Origin: an uncultured delta proteobacterium
Lineage (GTDB): Bacteria > Myxococcota_A > Polyangia > Haliangiales > Haliangiaceae
Direction: 5' to 3'
DNA: 35,290 nt
Assembly: GCA_900696455.1 (NCBI GenBank)
Contig: CAADGB010000490.1
Span: forward strand, 1-35,290
Part shown: one piece after another, positions 9,914 to 35,290 of the stretch
Layout: each line of letters opens with the position of its first letter
Numbering within the stretch: position 1 is the first letter of the stretch
Translations under genes and position numbers: made by a program
Notes under the pieces: generated by a model
The model's database searches: none
Told to the model about the DNA's origin: nothing
The model's input: the letters and a program-made list of their open reading frames with translations, nothing else

Positions 9914-11933
9914 TCAGGGCAGCCGGGTGATGCGGCCGGTGGCCGGCGGCGTCAGCGGCGAGTGCGCGGCGAGGTAGGCCTCGAGGGCGTCGATGTCGAG
10001 CGGGCCGGCGACGCGGTCGGTGCCCTCGACCAGGACGGCGAAGCCGTCGCCGCCGCCGGCGAGGAGGGCGTTGACCGCGATGCGGTAGGTGGCGGTGGGG
10101 ACCACGGGCGCGCCGCCGATGCGGATCGACGACGGCGCGACGCGGTCGCCGATGGCGCGGCTGGCGTCCCAGGTGTAGGTGAAGCCGGCCGACGGCTGGA
10201 GGATGTTGGCGCGCTCGGCGCCGCCGACCAGCGACCACTGCTGCTCGAGCATGAGCTCGAGCTGGGCGCCGGTCACGGTGAGGGTCATCATCGTGTTGCC
10301 GAAGGGCTGGACCGCGAACAGCTCGCCGTAGGTGGCCTCGCCCGGCTGCTCGCCGCCGGCGATGGTGGCCGCCAGCAGGTCGGCGCGGACGCCGCCCGGG
10401 TTCATGAAGGCCGCCACCGCGCCGTCGGCGCGCGCGCCGGCGAGCTGGGCGTCGGCGATCACCAGGCCCATGGTCGACTCGCCGGCCGGGGTCAGGGCGC
10501 GGGTCAGGTCACCGGCGACGCGACCGGCGACGCGGTTGGCGAGGGGGGCCGCCAGCGCCTCGTAGCGCTCGATCAGCGCGGTCTGGGCGGCGTCGCGCTC
10601 GACGGTGCGGGTGACGATCACGTTGTTGGCGGTCATCGTGCGCGGCTCGCCGGTGAGCTCGTCGAGCTCGAGGTCGATGTCGGTCACCAGGCGGCCGGCG
10701 TGGGCGGCGCTGGTCACCAGGCGGCCGTCGAGCTCGCAGGTGTGGGCGGCGTTGGTGTGGCCGGTGACCACGACGTCGACGGCGGGGTGGAAGCGCTGGA
10801 CGATCTCGAACACCGGGCCGGAGATGCCCGCGCACTCGTTGTAGAGGCCGGTGGCGGCGCCGCCCTCGTGGAGGAGGACGACGATGGTCTCGACGCCGCG
10901 CGCCCGCAGGAGCGGCACCAGGGCGTTGACGGTGTCGGCCTCGTCGGCGAAGCGCAGCCCGCGGGTGCCCTCCTGGGTGGTGACCAGGGGCGTGCCCTCG
11001 AGCGTCATGCCGATGAACGCGACCCGGGCCCGGCCGAAGCGGCGGATGGTGAAGGGCGGGAGCACCGTGGCGCCGGTGGCCTCGTCGGTGACGTTGGCGG
11101 CGAGGTAGGCGAACGCCGCGCCGGCGAAGCCGTCGCCGTCCTGACAACCGTCGACCGGGTGGCAGCCGCCGTACTGCATGCGCCACAGCTCGTCAATGCC
11201 CTCGTCGAACTCGTGGTTGCCGACGCCGGCGATGTCGAGGCCCATCAGGTTCATCGACTCGATCGTCGGCTCGTCGTGGAACAGCGCCGACACCAGCGGG
11301 GTGGCGCCGATGATGTCGCCGGCGGCGACCACCAGGGTGTTGGGGTTGGTCGCGCGCAGCGCCTTGATGTGGGTGGCCATGAACTCGGCGCCGCCGGCGT
11401 CGACCGGGCCGGCCGCGGTCACGATGCGGCCGCTCGAGCCGCTGGGCGGGCGCAGGTTGCCGTGGAAGTCGTTGAACGCGAGGAGCTGGAGGGGCACGGT
11501 GCCACACGCGAACTCGGGGTGGCGGGCGGCGTGGTCCCGCAGCCGGGTGAAGGCCTGACGGCCGACGTGCTTGACGGCGTCGAGCTGACGGAGGTCCCGG
11601 AACCAGCCGTCGTCGTCGGTGTCGATCACGCCGTCGGGGCCCTGGCGGTGGGCGACGATGTGCTGGGCGGCCAGCCGGTTGAGGCGGACGCCGTGGTCGA
11701 GCAGGTCGAGGTCGCCGAGGGTCGCCAGCTTGAGGATCGCGCAGGCCTCGGGCGTCCCGTCGGCGATCCCGTAGGCGTCGTCCTTGCCGTCGACCAGGAA
11801 GTCGTCGTCCTCGCCGTCGAGGGGGTCGTCGTCGTCGCCTCCGGCGCAGGCCGGGACGAGCGCGGCGGCGGCGAGGAGGGCGGGGATCAGCGGGCGGCGG
11901 GCGAACGGGCGGAGGGAGCGGGGGGGGACGCAT
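9914..11933 (-). CDS. UshA-like 5'-nucleotidase / metallophosphoesterase lipoprotein, start frameshifted at a C8 tract
   Basis: The body is a bifunctional 5'-nucleotidase-type protein that would dephosphorylate nucleotides outside the cytoplasm. The metallophosphoesterase domain shows LLAFNDFHGNLRP, VVAAGDIIG, GVGNHEFDEG and VVVTGHTNAAHTC. The 5'-nucleotidase C-terminal domain shows MNPGGVRADL and YGELFAVQPFGNTMMTLTVTGAQLELMLEQQW. Upstream in the same frame is a lipoprotein signal (RRPLIPALLAAALVPACAGG) and an Asp-rich tether, but that frame has no ATG or GTG before the signal. ATG 11933 (minus), preceded by GGAG, is in another frame and is joined by an eight-C run (plus-strand G8, 11920-11927). 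One base fewer gives MRPPRSLRPFARRPLIPALLAAALVPAC. Either a sequence error or a phase-variable tract; the first intact in-frame start (GTG 11629) would lack export. Confidence 0.8.
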
Positions 11934-12047
11934 GCGTGGCGACTCCGGTTGGCGGGTTGGTGAGCGCCGGCACGCCGGGAGCACGCCTCGTGCCACGGCC
12001 CGACCCCGAGGATCCGCGCACTTGCCCGTGGCGCCCGGGCCGGACGG

Positions 12048-12066
12048 CTGTCGCGCGCAACGACAG
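12048..12066. promoter_or_regulatory. Inverted repeat upstream of the 5'-nucleotidase gene
   Basis: CTGTCG (12048-12053) and CGACAG (12061-12066) with a 7-nt centre lie about 115 bp upstream of the probable nucleotidase start, in the stretch between it and the tandem repeat. It could be an operator or a short hairpin; no regulator is identified. Confidence 0.25.
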
Positions 12067-12098
12067 TAGCCAGGCACCGCGGGCCGCCCGGCAGTCGT

Positions 12099-12256
12099 CA
12101 GCTCGCGTCCGCCACCCGCCCGCTCGCGTCCCGTCCCCCGCCCGCTCGCGTCCCGTCCCCCGCCCGCTCGCGTCCGTCACGCGCCCGCTCGCGTCCATCA
12201 CCCGTCGGCTCGCGTCCGTCACGCGCCCGCTCGCGTCCATCACCCGTCAACTCGCG
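12099..12256. repeat. 21/22-bp tandem repeat array, about 7.5 copies
   Basis: Consecutive units share the core GCTCGCGTCC (plus strand). There are five 21-bp units, two identical 22-bp units, and a final partial unit that runs into the 3' end of the hemerythrin gene. Within the array a 42-bp dimer (units ending GTCACGCGCC and ATCACCCGTC in turn) occurs twice. Read on the minus strand the units next to the gene encode a heptapeptide of the type V-T-D-A-S-G-R in the same frame as the hemerythrin ORF, after its stop codon. Repeats abut without spacers, so this is not CRISPR. Confidence 0.85.
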
Positions 12257-12801
12257 ATGCGAGCGGCGGCGTAGCGGTCGGCGAGGGTGTCGCCCAGCGC
12301 CTCGAGCCGGCGGGCGGCGTCGCCGTCGGCGGGGACGACGAGGTCGAGGGCGGCGAGGTCGTCGGCGCCGACGAGCTGCTCGGCCATCGGGTAGAGGACG
12401 TTGTTCTCCTTGTGGATGTGATCGGTGAGCAGGCGGACGTAGGCGGGCACGGCCCTGGCCAGGGCGACCAGGTCGGGGCCGACCAGGGGGCCCCGGCCGG
12501 CGGCGAGGTCGGCGAGCACCGCGACGTGGCCGCGGCCGACGTCGTGGTCGTGGCGCATGCAGCCGATGGGACCGGCGTCGCGGGGCAGGCCGGCCCGGAT
12601 CATGGCCTCGAACAGGTGGTCCTCCTCCTTGTGGTGGTGGACGCCATCGACGTACTCGCGCAGGTACGTGACGAACTGTCCGAGGATCGGACGTGGCGCC
12701 GGGTCGTCGACGACGTGGTAGGCCGCGAAGTCGTGGAGGGCGCCGAGCACGCGGCGGATGTGGACGTGCTCGGCGACGAGGGTGGTGAGGAGCTCGCTCA
12801 T
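12247..12801 (-). CDS. Hemerythrin-like (HHE domain) protein
   Basis: A 184-residue four-helix protein with the metal-ligand pattern of hemerythrin HHE domains: EHVHIRRVL (His12/14), HHHKEEDHLFE (His55-57 with Glu), RHDHDVGRGH (His84, 86, 92) and DHIHKENNVLYPMAE. Such domains bind a di-iron centre and act in oxygen, nitric oxide or redox sensing and in iron-centre repair (family knowledge). The start is placed at ATG 12801 (MSELLTTLVAEH), where family similarity begins; a longer frame reaches 12930 but adds only Arg/Pro-rich sequence. It diverges from the MbnP-like gene. Its TGA lies inside the first unit of the tandem repeat, at the triplet where another unit carries CGA. Confidence 0.85.
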   Translation of the reverse strand: MSELLTTLVAEHVHIRRVLGALHDFAAYHVVDDPAPRPILGQFVTYLREYVDGVHHHKEEDHLFEAMIRAGLPRDAGPIGCMRHDHDVGRGHVAVLADLAAGRGPLVGPDLVALARAVPAYVRLLTDHIHKENNVLYPMAEQLVGADDLAALDLVVPADGDAARRLEALGDTLADRYAAARIAS

Positions 12802-12916
12802 CGCCGGCCAGCCTGCCCGGGCGAAGCGGGCGCGACCTGATCCGGCGTCAAGTCGGCGCCGCGGTGCGCAATCCCACCGCATGGGGCGCGCCGCCGCCGG
12901 GACCAAGCTGCCGGGA

Positions 12917-12936
12917 GGTGCACGACGCACCGGAGG
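12917..12936 (+). promoter_or_regulatory. Small hairpin and strong Shine-Dalgarno before the MbnP-like gene
   Basis: GGTGC (12917-12921) and GCACC (12927-12931) form a 5-bp stem with a 5-nt loop directly abutting GGAGG (12932-12936), which sits 5 nt before ATG 12942. The SD fixes this start. The adjacent hairpin could modulate initiation; that part is inference. Confidence 0.4.
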
Positions 12937-12941
12937 ATCTC

Positions 12942-13760
12942 ATGCGTACGACCGGACGTACTCCCCGCCCCCTCGCCCTGGCCTGCCTCGGCGCGACCTC
13001 CCTGCTCGCCGGCCTCGTCGGCTGCGGCGACGACCACGATCACGGCGACGACGTCGACGCCCGTCCCGCCGACGCCGCGCCCGGCAGCGGCGCGGTGACC
13101 GTGGCCTTCGCCCACCGGGTCGGCGGCGACGCGGTGCTGATGGGCACCGACACGCCGTACCTGAACGCCGCCGGCGACGCCTTCGGCGTGACCGTGGTGC
13201 GTTACTTCGTCAGCGACGTCAGCCTCCACTTCGCCGACGGCTCGCGCTGGGACGCCCCCGGCCCTCGCTACGTCGACCACGAGCTGACCGCGACCCTGAC
13301 CCAGCTCCTGGCCAGCGACGTGCCGACCGGCGCCCTGGCCTCGGTGTCGTTCGTGATGGGGCTGCCGCCGGCGCTCAACACCAGCGGGCGCTTCACGGCC
13401 CCGCCCGAGTCGCTGATGGAGTGGCCGGAGATGATGGGCGGCGGCTACCACTACCTGAAGTTCGAGGGCCGCTACCTCAACGAGGCCGGCGAGCCGTTCC
13501 CGTACCGCGCCCACAGCGGCGGCCTCGACGGGGTCGACTACTCGTTCGCGGTCTCGCTCGACGCCAGCGGCCGCGCCGTCGAGGCCACCGGCACCACGCT
13601 CACCCTGGTCATGAACCTCGAGCAGTGGTTCACGGCGCCCCACACATGGGACCTCGACGACTACTTCAACGCCGCCCAGCCCGGCATCATGCGCAACGCC
13701 ACGGCCCAGGCCGAGCTCCAGGCCAACGGCGCCACCGTGTTCGCGCTGGGGGCGCCGTGA
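12942..13760 (+). CDS. MbnP-like copper-binding lipoprotein
   Basis: A 272-residue exported protein resembling the MbnP family (the 'metallo-mystery pair' partner of a di-haem enzyme). The lipoprotein signal RPLALACLGATSLLAGLVGCG places Cys28 at the mature N-terminus, followed by a metal-binding-looking DDHDHGDDVDA stretch. Family-like segments are VTVAFAHRVGGDAVLMGTDTPYLNAAGDAFGVTVVRYFVSDVSLHF, LPPALNTSGRFT and MEWPEMMGGGYHYLKFEGRY. In studied MbnP proteins the partner MbnH oxidises a Trp to kynurenine, completing a copper site; which Trp would serve here is not clear. A strong SD supports ATG 12942. Its TGA overlaps the GTG of the MbnH-like gene, so the two are co-translated. Confidence 0.78.
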   Translation: MRTTGRTPRPLALACLGATSLLAGLVGCGDDHDHGDDVDARPADAAPGSGAVTVAFAHRVGGDAVLMGTDTPYLNAAGDAFGVTVVRYFVSDVSLHFADGSRWDAPGPRYVDHELTATLTQLLASDVPTGALASVSFVMGLPPALNTSGRFTAPPESLMEWPEMMGGGYHYLKFEGRYLNEAGEPFPYRAHSGGLDGVDYSFAVSLDASGRAVEATGTTLTLVMNLEQWFTAPHTWDLDDYFNAAQPGIMRNATAQAELQANGATVFALGAP

Positions 13761-14737
13761 GCGGCGCGGGCCCGACGGCGGGCGCGTGGATCGGGGTCGC
13801 CCTGCTGGCGGTCGCGGCCTGCGCGACCGACGACGGCCCGCGCTCGGTCGATCACCTCATCCCGCGCGGCTTCCCGCCCATGGTCGTGCCCGACGACAAC
13901 CCGTCGACGGTCGAGGGCATCGCCCTCGGCCGCCAGCTCTACTACGACCAGCGGCTGTCGCCGCAGGGCAACCGGGCGTGCGCCGACTGCCACGATCAGG
14001 CGCGCGCCTTCACCAGCCCGACCGCGCCCGGCGTCCTGCCCCACATCAACCTGGCGTGGTCGCGCAACTTCCTGTGGGACGGCCGCTTCGAGGGCACGCT
14101 CGACGAGGCCATGATCATGGAGGTCGAGGAGTTCTTCGTCACCGACGTCGAGCGCCTGAAGCAGCCCGACCTCGAGGCGATGTTCGCGGCCGCGTTCGGC
14201 ACCCCCGAGGTGACGACCCACCGGGCGGCCTACGCCCTGGCCCAGTTCCAGCGCACGATGGTCTCCGGCGACTCGCCGTTCGATCGCTACGCCGACGGCG
14301 AGCTGACCGCGCTCGGCGCCGCCGAGCGCCGCGGCCTCGAGCTCTTCTACAGCGAGCAGGGTGAGTGCTTCCACTGCCACGCCACCCGGCTCCTCACCGA
14401 CAACCAGTTCCACAACATCGGCCTCGACGCCGCCGTCGCCGGCACCGGCCGCGGCGTGGTCACCGGGCGCGCCCTCGACGACGGGCGGTGGAAGACGCCG
14501 ACCCTGCGCAACGTGGCGATGACCGCGCCCTACATGCACGACGACCGCTTCGCCACCCTCGAGCAGGTCGTCGACTTCTACAGCGACCAGGTCGTCGACT
14601 CGCCCACGCTCTCGACCCTGGTCCCGGTCGGCGGCTACCGCCTCAGCGCCGACGAGAAGGCCGACCTCGTCGCCTTCCTGCGCGCGCTCACCGACGAGCG
14701 CTTCCTCGCCGATCCGGCGCTGGCGCCGCCGCCGTAG
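13757..14737 (+). CDS. MbnH-like di-haem cytochrome c peroxidase/MauG-family protein
   Basis: A 326-residue protein with two c-type haem motifs, CADCH (75-79) and CFHCH (204-208), on the bacterial di-haem peroxidase/MauG scaffold. Conserved family segments are IALGRQLYYDQRLSPQGNRACADCH, LAWSRNFLWDGRFEGTLDEA, and TPTLRNVAMTAPYMHDDRFATLEQVVDFY. The N-terminus has a hydrophobic stretch ending VAACAT, a probable lipobox with Cys22. The protein is only about 325 aa and pairs with an MbnP-like gene through a 4-bp GTGA overlap, so I favour the MbnH subfamily (post-translational oxidation of the partner) over a peroxide-scavenging CcpA. Activity is inferred. Confidence 0.85.
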   Translation: MSGAGPTAGAWIGVALLAVAACATDDGPRSVDHLIPRGFPPMVVPDDNPSTVEGIALGRQLYYDQRLSPQGNRACADCHDQARAFTSPTAPGVLPHINLAWSRNFLWDGRFEGTLDEAMIMEVEEFFVTDVERLKQPDLEAMFAAAFGTPEVTTHRAAYALAQFQRTMVSGDSPFDRYADGELTALGAAERRGLELFYSEQGECFHCHATRLLTDNQFHNIGLDAAVAGTGRGVVTGRALDDGRWKTPTLRNVAMTAPYMHDDRFATLEQVVDFYSDQVVDSPTLSTLVPVGGYRLSADEKADLVAFLRALTDERFLADPALAPPP

Positions 14738-26651: not shown

Positions 26652-29123
26652 TCAGTCGTTGTCGTTGGCGGGCGCCTCGTCCTCATCCTCGTCGCCGCCG
26701 CCGTCGCCGCCGCCGTCGCGCCCGCCGGCCTGGAACCGGCGCGCGGCCTCGGTGAACGCGGCCAGCCGCGCCTCGACCTGGCCGTTGACGCTGTCGGGCG
26801 GGAACTGGCCGCGCTCGTCGCGGGCGCCGGCCGGCACGCCGGTGAGCAGCGCCATGGCCTCGTCGATGTCGGCGATGGCGTGGACGTGGAAGCGGCCCTC
26901 GGCCACCGCGGCCACCACGTCCTCGCGCAGCATCAGGTGCTGGACGTTGGCCGTCGGGACGAGCACGCCCTGGCTGCCGGTCAGGCCGCGCTCGAGGCAG
27001 GCGTCGAAGAAGCCCTCGATCTTCTCGTTGACGCCGCCGATGGGCTGGGCTCGCCCGTGCTGGTCGACCGAGCCGGTGAGGGCCAGCGCCTGGTCGAGGG
27101 GCAGCTCGGCGATCGCCGACAGGAGCGCGCACAGCTCGGCCATCGACGCGCTGTCGCCCTCGATGCCGCCGTACGACTGCTCGAACACCAGCGTCGCCGA
27201 CAGCGACAGCGGGCGCTCGCGCGCGTAGCGGGCGCCGACCAGCCCGGTCAGGATGAGCACGCCCTTGGAGTGGAGGGGGCCGCCGAGCTCGACCTCGCGC
27301 TCGAGGTCGATGACCTCGCCGTCGCCGACCCGGGCGCGGGCGGTGAGGCGGGTGGGCTGGCCGAAGGCGCTGCCGCCGAGCTCGATCACCGACAGGCCGT
27401 TGACCTGGCCGACCCGGCGGCCGCTGGTCTCGACCAGGAGGACGCCCTTGCGGATGGCCTCGAGCGTGCGCTCGCGCAGGCGGCCGGCGCGCCGGAGCTG
27501 GCCGTCGATCGCGGCCTGGACGTCGGCGGCGGTGACCGTGGGGTGGCCGCCGCGCTCGGCGAGGTGGTCGGCCTCGCGCAGCAGGTCGAGGATCGAGCGC
27601 AGGTGGATCGACAGCTTGTCGGCGTCGCCGGCCAGGCGCGCGGCGTGATCGAGGACGCGCGCGACCGCCGCGCGATCGAACGGGCGCAGCCCCTCGCGCC
27701 CGACCATCGCCGCCACCAGGCGGGCGTAGGCCGAGATCGTGCCCGGGCGGCGGTCGGTGCTCTCGTCGAAGTCGGCCATCACCTTGAACAGCTCGGCGAC
27801 GTCGGGATCGAGGGCGGCGACCAGGTAGTAGAGCAGGCGCTCGCCGAACAGGACGAGCTTCACGCCCTCGAGCGGGATGGGCTCGGGCTCGAGCGACACC
27901 GTCGACAGCAGGCCGAGGGTCTGGCCCAGCGACTCGATCTTGACCTCGCGGCTGCGCAGCGCCCGCTTGAGCGCGTCCCAGGCGAAGGGTTGGGACAGGA
28001 CCTCGACCGCGTCGAGCAGGAGGTAGCCGCCGTTGGCCTGGTGCAGGGCGCCGGCGCGGATCAGGGTGAAGTCGGTGATCAGCGCGCCCATCTGCGGCAC
28101 GTGCTCGACGCGGCCGATCAGGTTGGCGTACGTGGGGTGATCCTCGTCGACGATCGGCGCCCCGCTGGCCCCGCCGTGGTCGACCAGCAGGTTGACCTGG
28201 TAGCGGCGGAACCAGCCGTCCTCGCTGCCGTCGGCGTGCATGGCGCGACGCACCATCTCCTCCACGCCGCCGTCGCCGCGCGCCACGAAGCGCTCGGCAT
28301 GCTCGACCACGTCGGCCTCGATGCCGGTCAGGTAGTCGCCGACCTGGGGCACGTCGCGCATGGCGACCCGCACCGCGTCGATCGCGCGCCGCGCCACCGC
28401 GGTCGCGACCTCGCGGTCGAGGGCGGCCAGCTCGTCGCGGTGCTCGTGGCCCCACTGGTGGAAGGTCGCGAACATCGTCGTGAGCTCGGCGCCGGTCTCC
28501 TCGATGGCGGCCTTGCGCGCGGCCTGCTCGGCCTCGGGGAGCTGCGCGAACTCGCCGGGGTCGAGCACCTCGTCGCCGCGGAGGGGGGCGATCGCGAGGC
28601 CGGTCTCGGTGCGGAGCACCGCGATCTGACGGCCGCGGGCGCGGAGCTGCAGCTCCTCGATGGCGGCCTCCTGCCGCTGCTTGAGGCGATCGATGCGCTC
28701 GCGCTTGCGGCTGCGGTACTCCTCGCTGTCGAAGGCCGCCGGCATGGCGGCGCGCAGCTCGCTGACGGCGCGGGCCATCTCGTCGCGCAGGCGGGCGCCG
28801 GCGCCCGGCGGCAGGCGCAGGGCCCGCGGCCGGTGGGGCGAGGCCAGGTTGCCGACGTAGCACCAGTCGGGCGGCGTCGGCTGGCTGGCCGCGCGCTGGG
28901 CGAGGAGCTGCCGCACGACCGTGCGCTTGCCGATGCCCTCGGGGCCGAGGGCGAACAGGTTGTAGCCGTCGTGGCGGACGCCGATCGCCAGCTCGACGGC
29001 GTCGACCGCCCGCGCCTGCCCCAGCGGCTCCTCGGCGGCGGGCGCATCGGCCGTGGTCGCGAACGGGATCTCGTCCGGATCGCAGCGGCGGCGGAGCTGC
29101 TCGGGGCGAAGCGCGGTGGTCAC
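26652..29123 (-). CDS. LonH/YcbZ-type ATP-dependent Lon-family protease
   Basis: An 823-residue protein related to the Lon proteases that lack the classical Lon N-domain (YcbZ/LonH, AAA_32 plus Lon_C). Walker A GPEGIGKRT is at 60-68. A long coiled-coil insertion (about 110-230) interrupts the AAA module. The C-terminal protease domain has the Ser-Lys dyad in GDSASMAE (Ser658) and GGVNEKIEGF (Lys701), 43 residues apart as in canonical Lon. ANGGYLLLDAVEVLSQPFAWDALKRAL is the sensor region. The tail ends in Gly/Asp/Glu repeats. Start GTG 29123, 32 bp after the preceding stop. It should degrade misfolded or specific regulatory proteins; substrates unknown. Confidence 0.85.
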   Translation of the reverse strand: MTTALRPEQLRRRCDPDEIPFATTADAPAAEEPLGQARAVDAVELAIGVRHDGYNLFALGPEGIGKRTVVRQLLAQRAASQPTPPDWCYVGNLASPHRPRALRLPPGAGARLRDEMARAVSELRAAMPAAFDSEEYRSRKRERIDRLKQRQEAAIEELQLRARGRQIAVLRTETGLAIAPLRGDEVLDPGEFAQLPEAEQAARKAAIEETGAELTTMFATFHQWGHEHRDELAALDREVATAVARRAIDAVRVAMRDVPQVGDYLTGIEADVVEHAERFVARGDGGVEEMVRRAMHADGSEDGWFRRYQVNLLVDHGGASGAPIVDEDHPTYANLIGRVEHVPQMGALITDFTLIRAGALHQANGGYLLLDAVEVLSQPFAWDALKRALRSREVKIESLGQTLGLLSTVSLEPEPIPLEGVKLVLFGERLLYYLVAALDPDVAELFKVMADFDESTDRRPGTISAYARLVAAMVGREGLRPFDRAAVARVLDHAARLAGDADKLSIHLRSILDLLREADHLAERGGHPTVTAADVQAAIDGQLRRAGRLRERTLEAIRKGVLLVETSGRRVGQVNGLSVIELGGSAFGQPTRLTARARVGDGEVIDLEREVELGGPLHSKGVLILTGLVGARYARERPLSLSATLVFEQSYGGIEGDSASMAELCALLSAIAELPLDQALALTGSVDQHGRAQPIGGVNEKIEGFFDACLERGLTGSQGVLVPTANVQHLMLREDVVAAVAEGRFHVHAIADIDEAMALLTGVPAGARDERGQFPPDSVNGQVEARLAAFTEAARRFQAGGRDGGGDGGGDEDEDEAPANDND

Positions 29124-29155: not shown

Positions 29156-29875
29156 TCAGGAGACGACGCCGTAGACGTTGCGGGCCTGGCGCTGGAGCTC
29201 GATGCCGTCGCGGATCTGCTCGAAGAGCTGGCGCGAGGCGGGGAGCCCGATCATCTCGAGGTGCGGCGTGGAGACGTCGGCGGTGAAGAGCTCGATGTGG
29301 GCGATGCCGAGCATGCGATCGAGCAGGTCCTGCTTGTAACGGATGTCGCGGCAGCGCCAGAGCTCGAGGACGTCGATCTTCTTGGACAGGATGCCGCGCT
29401 CGGACTCGATGTTGGAGGAGGTGACCCGGAAGCGGATCGAGCGGCGGTAGAGGTAGAGGCCCGCGAAGTAGGCGGCGGCCATGGCCAGGCAGATCCCGAC
29501 GGCCAGCACCTTCTTGCTGGTGCCGGCGCCGAACACGCCCGCCAGCCACAGGATCAGGAGCGTCACCAGCGGCGTGGCCAGGACGCCGAGCGCGTAGTGC
29601 TTGAAGAAGGCCCGCCACGACGGGACGCCGTCGTAGAGGATCTTGCGCTCGCCCTTGCCATCGGGGGCGTGCGGCGCGGAGAAGCCGGCCTTGCCGGGCT
29701 CGGCCTGGCGCGCGAACGGCGGCCCCGCGGGCGTGGCCGGCGCCGCGGGCGCGGGCGCGGGTGCCGGGGCGGCGGCCGGCGCCGCCCCGGGCGCGGCGCT
29801 GACGAACGATCCACAGAAGCGGCACTTGATGGCCTCCTCCTGGATCTCCTCGGCGCAGAACGGGCATTTCTTCAT
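29156..29875 (-). CDS. Zinc-ribbon, PH-domain (bPH2) membrane protein
   Basis: A 239-residue protein. The N-terminal zinc ribbon is MKKCPFCAEEIQEEAIKCRFCG (Cys4, 7, 18, 21). An Ala/Pro linker (about 26-55) follows. Two transmembrane helices (YALGVLATPLVTLLILWLAGVF and VLAVGICLAMAAAYFAGLYLY) precede a bacterial PH-like domain (RSIRFRVTSSNIESERGILSKKIDVLELWRCRDIRYKQDLLDRMLGIAHIELFTADVSTPHLEMIGLP), which resembles YdbT/DUF304 proteins. ATG 29875 follows TAGGAT by 9 nt. No enzymatic motif. It sits between the TPR-barrel gene and the LonH-like gene on the same strand and could be part of that transcript. Confidence 0.82.
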   Translation of the reverse strand: MKKCPFCAEEIQEEAIKCRFCGSFVSAAPGAAPAAAPAPAPAPAAPATPAGPPFARQAEPGKAGFSAPHAPDGKGERKILYDGVPSWRAFFKHYALGVLATPLVTLLILWLAGVFGAGTSKKVLAVGICLAMAAAYFAGLYLYRRSIRFRVTSSNIESERGILSKKIDVLELWRCRDIRYKQDLLDRMLGIAHIELFTADVSTPHLEMIGLPASRQLFEQIRDGIELQRQARNVYGVVS

Positions 29876-29934: not shown

Positions 29935-31107
<1,173 letters not shown>

Positions 31108-31112
31108 GACCT

Positions 31113-31133
31113 TGCTCACTTGACTCACTTGAC

Positions 31134-31139
<6 letters not shown>
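31113..31139 (-). repeat. Triple 9-bp repeat at the kinase/TPR gene junction
   Basis: Minus-strand unit AAGTGAGTC occurs about three times in tandem (the last copy reads AAGTGAGCA). Each copy contains GTGA, so the kinase stop codon overlaps a GTG and further in-frame GTGs follow 9 bp apart. The unit length is three codons, so copy changes would keep frame. Confidence 0.6.
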
Positions 31140-32942
<1,803 letters not shown>

Positions 32943-33044
32943 TCGTACCTCCCGCGGCCACGAGTCTAGCGCATGTCCACGTCTTCATGCTCGAAACCTG
33001 TGAGGTAATCACCCGTCCGGCCGCGTGGAGTTGGGGCGAGTGGA

Positions 33045-33064
33045 CCTCACGGAGCCTCACGGAG
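33045..33064. repeat. 10-bp direct repeat upstream of the D,D-peptidase gene
   Basis: CCTCACGGAG occurs twice in immediate tandem (33045-33054 and 33055-33064) in the region between the divergent kinase and D,D-peptidase genes. Purpose unknown; could be a regulator half-site pair. Confidence 0.4.
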
Positions 33065-33080
33065 CACCACCGGGTTGGAC

Positions 33081-33116
33081 CTCGTCGACACGAGAGCCTT
33101 GGGCAGGAGTCCTGCC
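33081..33116. promoter_or_regulatory. Two adjacent palindromes upstream of the D,D-peptidase promoter
   Basis: CTCGT-cgac-ACGAG (33081-33094) and GGCAGGA-g-TCCTGCC (33102-33116), the second a perfect 7-bp inverted repeat. They lie 30-65 bp upstream of the -35 box, a usual place for an activator or a shared divergent operator. Confidence 0.45.
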
Positions 33117-33145
33117 TGGGGTGGTTGTGACACGTCGTCGGTTTC

Positions 33146-33175
33146 TTGGCCCGCCGGGAGGCGGGCTGTTACGCT
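33146..33175 (+). promoter_or_regulatory. Sigma70-like leaderless promoter of the D,D-peptidase gene
   Basis: TTGGCC (33146-33151), 18-bp spacer, TACGCT (33170-33175), then 8 nt to ATG 33184. The decamer TACGCTCGGG recurs at 34144-34153 ahead of the TldD-like gene. Confidence 0.6.
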
Positions 33176-33183
33176 CGGGATCG

Positions 33184-34116
33184 ATGCGCTGGACGCCGTG
33201 CGTGACCCTGGGAGTGGCCTTGGTCCTGGCAGCGGGTGGCAGCGGCCCGGCCAGCGCCGAGGAGGCTGGACCTGCGCGCTTGCCCGACATCCGGTCGCAG
33301 GCCGCGGTGGTGCTCGACGCGCGCACCGGGGCCGAGGTCTTCGGCAAGCAGGCCGACGAGGTCCGCGCCATCGCCTCGACCACCAAGATCTTCGTGGCGA
33401 TGGCGGTGCGCAAGAAGGGCATCGCCCTCGACGGCTGGACCGAGATCACCCGGACCGACGCCCGCGCCGCCGCCGGCGGCAGCCGGACCCGGCTCGACAT
33501 CGGCCAGTCGTTCAAGAACGTCGATCTGCTGCGGGCGATGCTGATGTCCTCGGACAACCGGGCGCCGACCGCGCTCGGCCGCGCCGTCGGCCTCGATCAG
33601 CCGCAGCTCGTGGCGGCGATGAACGCGCTGGCCAAGGACCTCGGGCTCAAGAAGACGCGCTTCACCGACACCTCCGGCCTGCGCGGCAACGTGTCGACCG
33701 CGCGGGAGATGGCGCTCGCCCTGCGCGCCGCCCTCGCCGATCCGGTGCTCGCCGAGATCATGGGCTCGGTCACGGCCGAGGTCCGGTCCAAGAGCGGCTA
33801 CGCCAAGATCCGCTACAACAGCACCAACGTCCCGCTGGTGGTCGGCGCCCGCCGGGTCGCCGGCGGCAAGACCGGCTTCACCCGCGCCGCCGGCTACTGC
33901 TTCATCACCGGCGCCAGCGTCGGCGGTCGCAGCTACCTGTTCGTGTTCCTCGGGGCCGACGGCAAGCTGACGCGCTTCGCCGACTTCGACCGGGCGGTGG
34001 CGTGGCTCGAGGCCGGGGCGCCGGGCGCCCGGGTGGCGCCGCGCGCGGCCGCCCGGCGAGGCGGCGAGCGCGCCGAGCCGGTGCGCGGCCGGGCCACCGG
34101 CGCCACCCGGCGCTGA
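33184..34116 (+). CDS. D-alanyl-D-alanine carboxypeptidase / endopeptidase-like (peptidase S11)
   Basis: A 310-residue exported penicillin-binding-protein-fold enzyme that would trim or cleave peptidoglycan peptides. The signal peptide is CVTLGVALVLAAGGSGPASA. The three active-site motifs are STTK (Ser65, Lys68), SDN (123-125) and KTG (229-231, in VAGGKTGFTRAAGYC). FTDTSGLRGNVSTAREMALALRAAL is another family hallmark. The C-terminal roughly 40 residues are Arg/Ala-rich and lack the long beta-domain and membrane anchor of E. coli PBP5, so it resembles PBP7-type or short S11 enzymes. ATG 33184 is supported by the promoter. Divergent from the kinase gene. Confidence 0.88.
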   Translation: MRWTPCVTLGVALVLAAGGSGPASAEEAGPARLPDIRSQAAVVLDARTGAEVFGKQADEVRAIASTTKIFVAMAVRKKGIALDGWTEITRTDARAAAGGSRTRLDIGQSFKNVDLLRAMLMSSDNRAPTALGRAVGLDQPQLVAAMNALAKDLGLKKTRFTDTSGLRGNVSTAREMALALRAALADPVLAEIMGSVTAEVRSKSGYAKIRYNSTNVPLVVGARRVAGGKTGFTRAAGYCFITGASVGGRSYLFVFLGADGKLTRFADFDRAVAWLEAGAPGARVAPRAAARRGGERAEPVRGRATGATRR

Positions 34117-34163: not shown

Positions 34164-34252
34164 GAGCCGAGTTCCTTCGAGTCAGGTCGGCGCCCGCGTT
34201 CCTCGTCGGGGGCGACCGATCGATGAAGGGCGCGTGACGTGTCACGCGCGCT
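34164..34252 (+). repeat. Dispersed extragenic repeat, copy B, palindrome over the start codon
   Basis: Aligns with copy A (17024-17110) in the same orientation. It ends in GCGCGTGAC (34230-34238) GT GTCACGCGC (34241-34249), a perfect 9-bp inverted repeat that covers GTG 34239, the likely start of the TldD-like gene. The stem differs in sequence from that of copy A but keeps the position and symmetry. Confidence 0.6.
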
Positions 34253-35290
34253 GGACGACGTGATCGGCCGCCGGGAGCTCCTGCGCGCGTTCGGCGCCAG
34301 CGCGGCGGTGGCGGCGCTCGCGCCGCTGGCCTGCGGCGGCCGCGGCCGCGTCGGGGCGGTCGAGCCGGGGGCGGCGTCGGCGTCCGAGCTGCGGGCGGCG
34401 CTGCGCGACGCCGTGACCGTGCTCGGCGATCGCCTGGATCGGCCGCGGGCCTGGGTCCTGGTGCGGCGGCGGGTACGGGCGCTGGCCGACGTCAGCCGGA
34501 CCGAGGTCGTCGACGAGGAGCGCACGATCGCGGTGCTCTCGGGGCACGGCCGCGACGGCGAGCGCCTCGAGCGCTGCTTCGACGACGTCACGCCGGCGCG
34601 GGTGCGGGCGATCGCCGCCGAGCTGGCGAGCGCGGCCGCCGGGCCGCGGCGCGAGGTGGCGGCCGCGATCCCGGCCCCCGTCGATCACGGCGCGCCGGTC
34701 GAGGCCGACCCGGCGCGCCTGGCTCCCGCCGAGTGGCTGACGCGGGTGCGGGCGCTGGCGCGGCGCGGCGAGGCCGCCGCGTCGAGCCGCATCGTCTACC
34801 GGGCGGCGTGGCTGGTGACCGACGACGACCGGGTGTGGGTGGTGGGCGAGGACGGCGATCGTCACCAGCGCCTGGTGCGCAGCCGCGTCGGCACGACCTT
34901 CGTGGCCTGGCACGGCAGCCGGCCGCAGCACGGCGAGGCCGAGGTCGCCGGGGGGGTCGGGCCGGCGGTCGAGCGGCTCGACGACGAGGCGATCGCGCGC
35001 GCGGCTGCCCTGGCCCTGGCCCTGTTCACGCCGGCGCCGCCGGCGGCGGGCGCTCACGTCGTGCTGCTCGATCCGGCGGTGGTGGCCGCGCTGGTCGACG
35101 CCCACGCCCGCGGGCCGACGCGCGCCGCCCCGGTCGCGCCGGCGGTCGCGGTGGTCGACGATCCGACGGTGGCCGGGTATGCGCGGCTGTGGTTCGACGA
35201 CGACGGCGCGCCGGCGACGGTGGTGCCGGTGGTGGGCGGCGCCGCCGGGGCCGCGGGGGCGGCGGTCGCGGCCGGGCCGCGGCGACGCGG
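34239..35290 (+). CDS. TldD/PmbA-like protein with Tat-lipoprotein signal, 3' truncated, metal motif apparently missing
   Basis: At least 350 residues, running off the window. GTG 34239 is the first start after an in-frame stop and has GAAGGG 8 nt upstream; GTG 34260 is the alternative. The N-terminus RRELLRAFGASAAVAALAPLACGG combines a twin-arginine pattern with a lipobox (Cys32). The rest resembles TldD: AVLSGHGRDGERLERCFDD, then AHVVLLDPAVVAALVDAHA and VAVVDDPTVAGYARLWFDDDGAPATVVPVV, corresponding to TldD's V-V-D-D-P-T-x-x-x-x-x-x-x-x-D-D-E-G block. Where TldD has HExxxH, only DAHARGP is present, so the zinc site appears lost or relocated. TldD/TldE are normally cytoplasmic; export would be atypical. 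Assignment moderate. Confidence 0.6.
   Translation, partial: MSRALDDVIGRRELLRAFGASAAVAALAPLACGGRGRVGAVEPGAASASELRAALRDAVTVLGDRLDRPRAWVLVRRRVRALADVSRTEVVDEERTIAVLSGHGRDGERLERCFDDVTPARVRAIAAELASAAAGPRREVAAAIPAPVDHGAPVEADPARLAPAEWLTRVRALARRGEAAASSRIVYRAAWLVTDDDRVWVVGEDGDRHQRLVRSRVGTTFVAWHGSRPQHGEAEVAGGVGPAVERLDDEAIARAAALALALFTPAPPAAGAHVVLLDPAVVAALVDAHARGPTRAAPVAPAVAVVDDPTVAGYARLWFDDDGAPATVVPVVGGAAGAAGAAVAAGPRRR

Follow-up and report, generated by a model that had tools for sequence, protein, structure and literature searches.

The TldD/TldE protease of Escherichia coli (MEROPS M103) combines a cutting subunit with a dead one (PMC5810440). The PmbA/TldE homodimers (1VL4, 3QTD, 3TV9, 1VPB) are hollow shells without a catalytic site. 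EnvC and NlpD, amidase activators with the LytM fold, offer a parallel in idea only; each is reported to have a catalytically dead peptidase fold and to regulate an enzyme acting on peptidoglycan. Open-access texts, mostly abstracts, on Tld pseudo-peptidases, on Tat in connection with TldD and on myxobacterial TldD contained no pair such as the one described here, and a text search of the pseudopeptidase review PMC11266112 found no mention of TldD.

The window, the whole 35,290-nucleotide stretch analysed, is the entire contig C490 of a 7.98-Mb genome in 554 contigs, from a bacterium of the myxobacterial group. Its last gene (fam0) is followed in relatives by a second Tld-fold gene (fam4), and the named records of the relatives' loci (16 loci) are all metagenome assemblies. 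The locus shares with E. coli TldD/TldE the folds of both subunits, the two adjacent genes and an alignment of fam0 to the end of TldD that includes the clamp, but neither subunit has an HExxxH, the third-ligand cysteine is not conserved, one subunit has a predicted Tat lipoprotein signal and the gene neighbourhood is that of the envelope. The PmbA/TldE homodimers are likewise zinc-less Tld shells and are the best structural matches of fam4; however, there are two distinct genes here, one of them for a predicted exported protein, and identity to fam4 is 15-17%. The fold of EnvC and NlpD is unrelated to Tld, and regulation by the Tld pair would be an analogy. The anatomy of the pair is solid and unusual, and a conserved pair with both subunits dead would mean that a hollow Tld shell is useful without cutting. 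A non-catalytic, exported TldD/TldE-like heterodimer without a metal site is the reading toward which the evidence leans, while any particular partner is rated lower.

Table 1. Features at the fam0 end of the window
Feature	Position	Strand	Evidence and remarks
Bacterial PH domain protein, N-terminal zinc ribbon, syntenic	29156..29875	-	PF03703 6.2e-12
TPR-containing protein, syntenic	29935..31137	-	PF07719 1.6e-6
Ser/Thr kinase, C-terminal PEGA domain, divergent from S11 gene	31134..32942	-	PF00069 1.9e-45, PF08308 1.9e-6
S11 D-alanyl-D-alanine carboxypeptidase/endopeptidase	33025..34116	+	PF00768 1e-38; NF008668 5e-41, under the model's cut-off
fam0, TldD-type pseudo-peptidase subunit	34239..35288	+	First 350 codons; contig end falls inside the gene
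Predicted Tat lipoprotein signal IGRRELLRAFGASAAVAALAPLAC	34263..34334	+	RR and Cys in 18/18; cleavage and export predicted only
Region aligning with the HExxxH helix of TldD	35079..35120 (ends approximate)	+	Reads VVAALVDAHARGPT, without zinc ligands; alignment A1 and TldD profile alignment
Conserved VAVVDDPTVAGYARLWFDDDG block, Tld C-terminal domain	35145..35207	+	Sequence; weak PF19289 match at residues 300-332

The window gene and its Tld fold

The frame of fam0 opens with a GTG and is still open at the contig end, with 350 residues visible. The start codon is unsure, as the orthologs begin just a few residues ahead of the RR motif, which in the window would correspond to the in-frame GTG at 34260. 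Against Pfam, the window fragment alone matched PmbA_TldD_3rd at E 0.26, which is too weak to decide, and complete orthologs (440-502 amino acids) were used instead. A search of 36 genomes, the window's own included, gave fam0 matches in 20, the two nearest being 67-68% identical. The dN/dS is approximately 0.4-0.5 for both fam0 and fam4, where dS is likely an underestimate given the G+C content, and these ratios indicate purifying selection on both genes. Since such similar orthologs stand at the same place in other genomes under this dN/dS, fam0 is not a chance frame, and an origin as a reading-frame artefact was rejected.

The earlier note had proposed a relationship to TldD, and this was borne out over the full length of complete orthologs by Pfam, by profile matches to solved chains and by structure comparison. 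Three of five fam0 orthologs matched PF19289 above the cut-off (3.9e-10, 2e-19, and 1.3e-14), one fell below it (L035, 7.9e-4) and one had no match (L025). A profile of 15 fam0 orthologs (A3) matched 6j6a at 5.4e-15, 5njf, 5njc, and 5nj5 at 1.1e-14 to 1.8e-14, 1vl4 at 2e-12, and 1vpb at 6.6e-9. The AlphaFold model of the ortholog at L097 (pLDDT 81.6, pTM 0.82) had TldD E263A (5njc_A, 7.3e-26) as its best Foldseek match, and the fam4 model (pLDDT 87.5) had 6j6a (4.5e-26); for each of the two models, all 16 matches with E <0.001 were Tld chains. In VIA, the fam0 model matched 1vl4, 5nj5, and 6j6a at Z 25.7-26.5 (3.1-4.5 Å over 375-417 residues). The 1vl4 match had Z 26.5 and 3.1 Å over 375 residues, with the first unrelated row at 5.1, and the 5nj5_A match (Z 26.1, 4.5 Å over 417 residues) indicates that the two-domain Tld fold is present in the ortholog; Z values within 1 of each other are ties and make no choice between TldD and TldE. 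The fam4 model matched 1vl4 at Z 30.3 (3.6 Å over 403 residues; first unrelated row 5.8). The lower-scoring MHC-like matches of both models (Z 4-6) were taken as common arrangements and not as relatives. By these models and profiles, both proteins are predicted to have the Tld fold.

Two subunits without the zinc motif

The gene directly 3' of fam0 in relatives encodes 397-451 amino acids. PF19289 was over the cut-off in all four fam4 proteins tested and also in that of L023 (1.5e-11), while the fam4 profile matched solved chains weakly (PmbA 3qtd 1.4e-4, 1vl4 2.2e-4), with rows at chance level next. With gene starts set at the start codon closest to where the profile begins, the fam0 stop and the fam4 start share 4 bp in 11 of the 13 named loci in which both could be placed; the genes abut in L111 and are 7 bp apart in L104, L105 is unplaced, and L109 and L112 hold fam4 only. 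A fam4 gene accompanies fam0 in 26 of its 27 genomes. By the listed coordinates, 24 of the 26 carry the two genes side by side, sharing strand and contig, and G015 and G020 have them on separate contigs. In the window's own genome, a congener's fam4 protein as query gave no match at E up to 10, which is probably due to the contig end or an assembly gap and not to absence, since a contig that stops within fam0 would leave fam4 out.

HExxxH is absent from the 350 visible residues of the window protein, from all 18 curated fam0 proteins (counting the window's, as far as it is visible) and from all 19 fam4 proteins. It is also absent from 20/20 fam0 and 17/17 fam4 segments, and from 15/15 and 16/16 in a second set; the three sets overlap. 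The lack of the motif claimed in the earlier note holds in the complete fam0 orthologs, where no zinc motif was found at other positions either. In the printed profile alignment of complete orthologs, LLHEAVGHGL of the genome's own TldD (contig C433) faces AALVAAHVSA of a fam0 ortholog; the window reads AALVDAHARG at this position in alignment A1. The window has VVAALVDAHARG ahead of VAVVDDPTVAGYARLWFDDDG, and the shortening reported for this segment holds for the window's genus and some other genera, but L028-L031 and L034 retain a long segment and nonetheless have no motif.

The excerpts of PMC5810440 place Cys454 of E. coli TldD in the C-terminal clamp region and note Asp as a possible substitute for this third ligand. 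Among the 17 complete fam0 orthologs, the C-terminal region, which lies beyond the window's cut, has no conserved cysteine; a cysteine within the final 25 residues occurs only in L027, L029, and L040. In sequence, fam0 aligns with the clamp region without a large gap, to the end of TldD, while a 12-column stretch is unmatched against TldE; the L097 model has strands at 428-438 and 445-460 in the aligned region.

Hydrolysis of peptides or another amide at a different catalytic site in the Tld shell is unlikely. The purifying selection on both genes would suit it, as would the invariant polar residues D54, R59, D106, S273, R294, N322, and R326 of fam4 and R175, R205, D311, and R340 of fam0. However, no His, Glu, or Lys is among the invariant columns of either family, the sole invariant Cys is that of the lipobox, and many of the invariant positions hold Gly, Pro, or Arg within stretches aligned with conserved motifs of ordinary Tld members. 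The Tld superfamily is said to include N-deacetylases, going by the title of a 2022 review.

Every one of the 19 other complete Tld pairs taken from this genome and related ones has exactly one HExxxH, always in the first gene. These control pairs (eight canonical, seven of the C415 type, and four of a third type) were at loci hand-chosen from search matches; L090, L091, and L092 of the third type showed only the HExxxH member and were left out. With HExxxH absent from all 19 fam4 proteins, an intact TldD as adjacent partner, which the earlier note had suggested looking for, is ruled out for the relatives. That fam0 is an ordinary TldE-like subunit, with the zinc subunit of a normal TldD/E protease just past the window, is accordingly hard to credit: TldE proteins do lack zinc ligands (PMC5810440, in excerpt), but the neighbour in relatives is also motif-free. 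The idea of a TldE-like partner stands insofar as a second Tld gene does adjoin in relatives; that gene has no zinc motif, and it is fam0 that occupies the TldD-like first position. In the relatives, the pair is a Tld pair with a double loss of the metal site.

In a tree of 69 Tld proteins (the fragment L087_96 left out), fam0 forms one clade (support 94) and fam4 another (100), both apart from the control types; their position relative to each other and to the rest has support 43, with long branches flagged by the program. In profile comparisons, fam0 is nearest to canonical TldD (E 1.9e-14; TldE 2.9e-12). For fam4, the third type's TldE-like partner comes first (1.9e-12), ahead of fam0 (4e-10) and TldE (1.4e-6). 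Together with gene order, these comparisons weakly favour a dead TldD for fam0 and a TldE for fam4. The third type has HES[IVC]GH and forms a clade separate from canonical TldD/E (L090-L096, on G013:C629, G011:C488, G004:C328, G023:C8, G028:C8, and G022:C202).

The window's genome also has a Tld pair with signal-like N-termini on contig C415 (L047, approximately 10100-13830), of a type widespread in the class. It resembles fam0/fam4 in being a Tld pair with such N-termini but keeps HEVFGH in its first protein, the motif being absent from the second, and belongs to a separate clade. Each dead subunit could instead partner an active Tld protein and tune it, as TldE does for TldD, the predicted-exported HEVFGH protein being an example. 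The presence of this pair in the same genome speaks for such an arrangement, as does a C415-type pair that G018 and G017 carry approximately 8-10 kb away from fam0/fam4, but fam0 and fam4 are adjacent, mostly overlapping and together in 26 of 27 genomes, as for subunits of one complex, and the C415-type pair is wider spread and has a partner of its own. This arrangement is quite unlikely.

Predicted export and possible role

The RR motif and lipobox described in the earlier note lie in GRRELLRAFGASAAVAALAPLACGG of the window protein, and both recur in all 18 fam0 proteins, with the Cys at position 22-32, which supports predicted export as a lipoprotein. Many members have a loose lipobox, with P, W, or A frequent at position -3, and of five fam0 proteins tested, a single one matched the Pfam TAT_signal model, weakly (E 0.023). 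The N-terminal 15-residue hydropathy maximum is 1.31-1.97 in fam0 versus -0.03 to 1.18 in fam4, which has no signal peptide, and in VIA the Tld-aligned part begins at residue 35-45 in fam0 and at residue 1-4 in fam4. TatC is encoded in the window's genome (E 4.1e-64). From these sequence features, we infer that fam0 is exported as a Tat lipoprotein.

In the proposed mechanism, fam0 would be the TldD-type subunit of a metal-less heterodimer, with the TldE-type fam4 of the window strain beyond the contig end. Both would fold in the cytoplasm and join there into the hollow shell usual for Tld proteins, and the twin-arginine signal of fam0 would direct this complex across the Tat translocon, fam4, which has no signal of its own, travelling as a hitchhiker. 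Tat transports folded substrates of 20-70 Å and also signal-less hitchhiker partners (PMC4273604, in excerpt), a range that would fit the TldD/E shell of approximately 65 Å across (PMC5810440, in excerpt). The lipobox cysteine of fam0 would then anchor the complex on the periplasmic side of a membrane, where the shell may serve as a non-cutting pseudo-peptidase that holds peptides or regulates, its ligands being unfolded peptides or an envelope partner. If hitchhiker export is true, the non-cutting use of the shell could be tested cleanly outside the cytoplasm.

A chaperone or peptide-binding role had been suggested for fam0 in the earlier note, and the pair probably binds or guards peptides without cutting. 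Crystals of the TldD mutants E263A and H262A contained adventitious peptides, and substrate is held through contacts with the main chain (PMC5810440, in excerpt); by analogy, a dead exported pair could hold peptides. The pair could also work on an envelope enzyme via surface contacts, as dead LytM proteins reportedly do on amidases. The full chain of assembly, Tat export, anchoring, peptide binding, and a link to S11 is a conjecture built on these features. The specific form of it, a Tat-exported, membrane-anchored, non-proteolytic Tld shell with fam4 as hitchhiker, serving as a peptide-holding cage or as a regulator of a peptidoglycan DD-peptidase, is put forward tentatively.

Distribution and gene neighbourhood

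Among 317 genomes of the class, fam0 is present in 27 at E <1e-35 (next match 1.3e-26) and fam4 in 26 at E <1e-45 (next match 4e-12). Family f1 (30 genomes) accounts for 26 genomes with fam0 and 25 with fam4; the remaining carrier of the pair, G022, belongs to another family of the order. In L110 (6501-7863) and L038, fam0 is broken over two frames by sequence error or decay, and the copy in G020 has a stop. These broken copies, the loss of the metal site from both subunits and the absence of the pair from four of the 30 f1 genomes (in G043 with the kinase/S11 core intact) could suggest a decaying relic without function, but full-length frames across diverged genera, the kept RR and Cys, the dN/dS and the kept pairing make this very improbable.

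In 19 of 27 loci (the 27 include the window), the S11 gene lies upstream of fam0 on the same strand and the kinase gene points away from it, and the STTK, SDN, and KTG motifs can be read in the window's S11 sequence. An enoyl-CoA hydratase-like gene stands between S11 and fam0 in L035 and is present in L037 and L040, where S11 was undetected; the pair in L026 (G003) has no kinase/S11 core nearby, and L033, L036, L039, L109, and L112 begin or stop near the pair. The distance from S11 to fam0 ranges from nearly none to 2.3 kb, the latter in L107 (4193-6481) and unlike the other loci. In genomes of the order without the pair, the kinase/S11 core is kept at five of five loci; the contig continues pair-free in four, and L148 ends. 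The pair was therefore added to, or lost from, a standing locus, and the S11 enzyme has no general need of it. No S11 match at 1e-30 was found in three of eight pair-less genomes searched. On the basis of gene order, the S11 DD-peptidase encoded upstream would be the first candidate for an envelope partner of the favoured non-catalytic heterodimer.

In g2 genomes, a gene for an M15-type D-Ala-D-Ala peptidase lies 3' of the pair (L035:6957-7559, with PF13539 at 4.1e-20; L037:5109-5837; L040:1271-1849), and the enoyl-CoA hydratase-like gene lies 5'. Elsewhere in the window, the linker between the kinase and PEGA domains (31400-31800) is a low-complexity repeat resembling GAGTASGGDTGAGTASG, and a Lon-like AAA protease of the LonB/LonC type is encoded at 26652-29123 (PF13654 2.9e-51, PF20437 8.7e-13).
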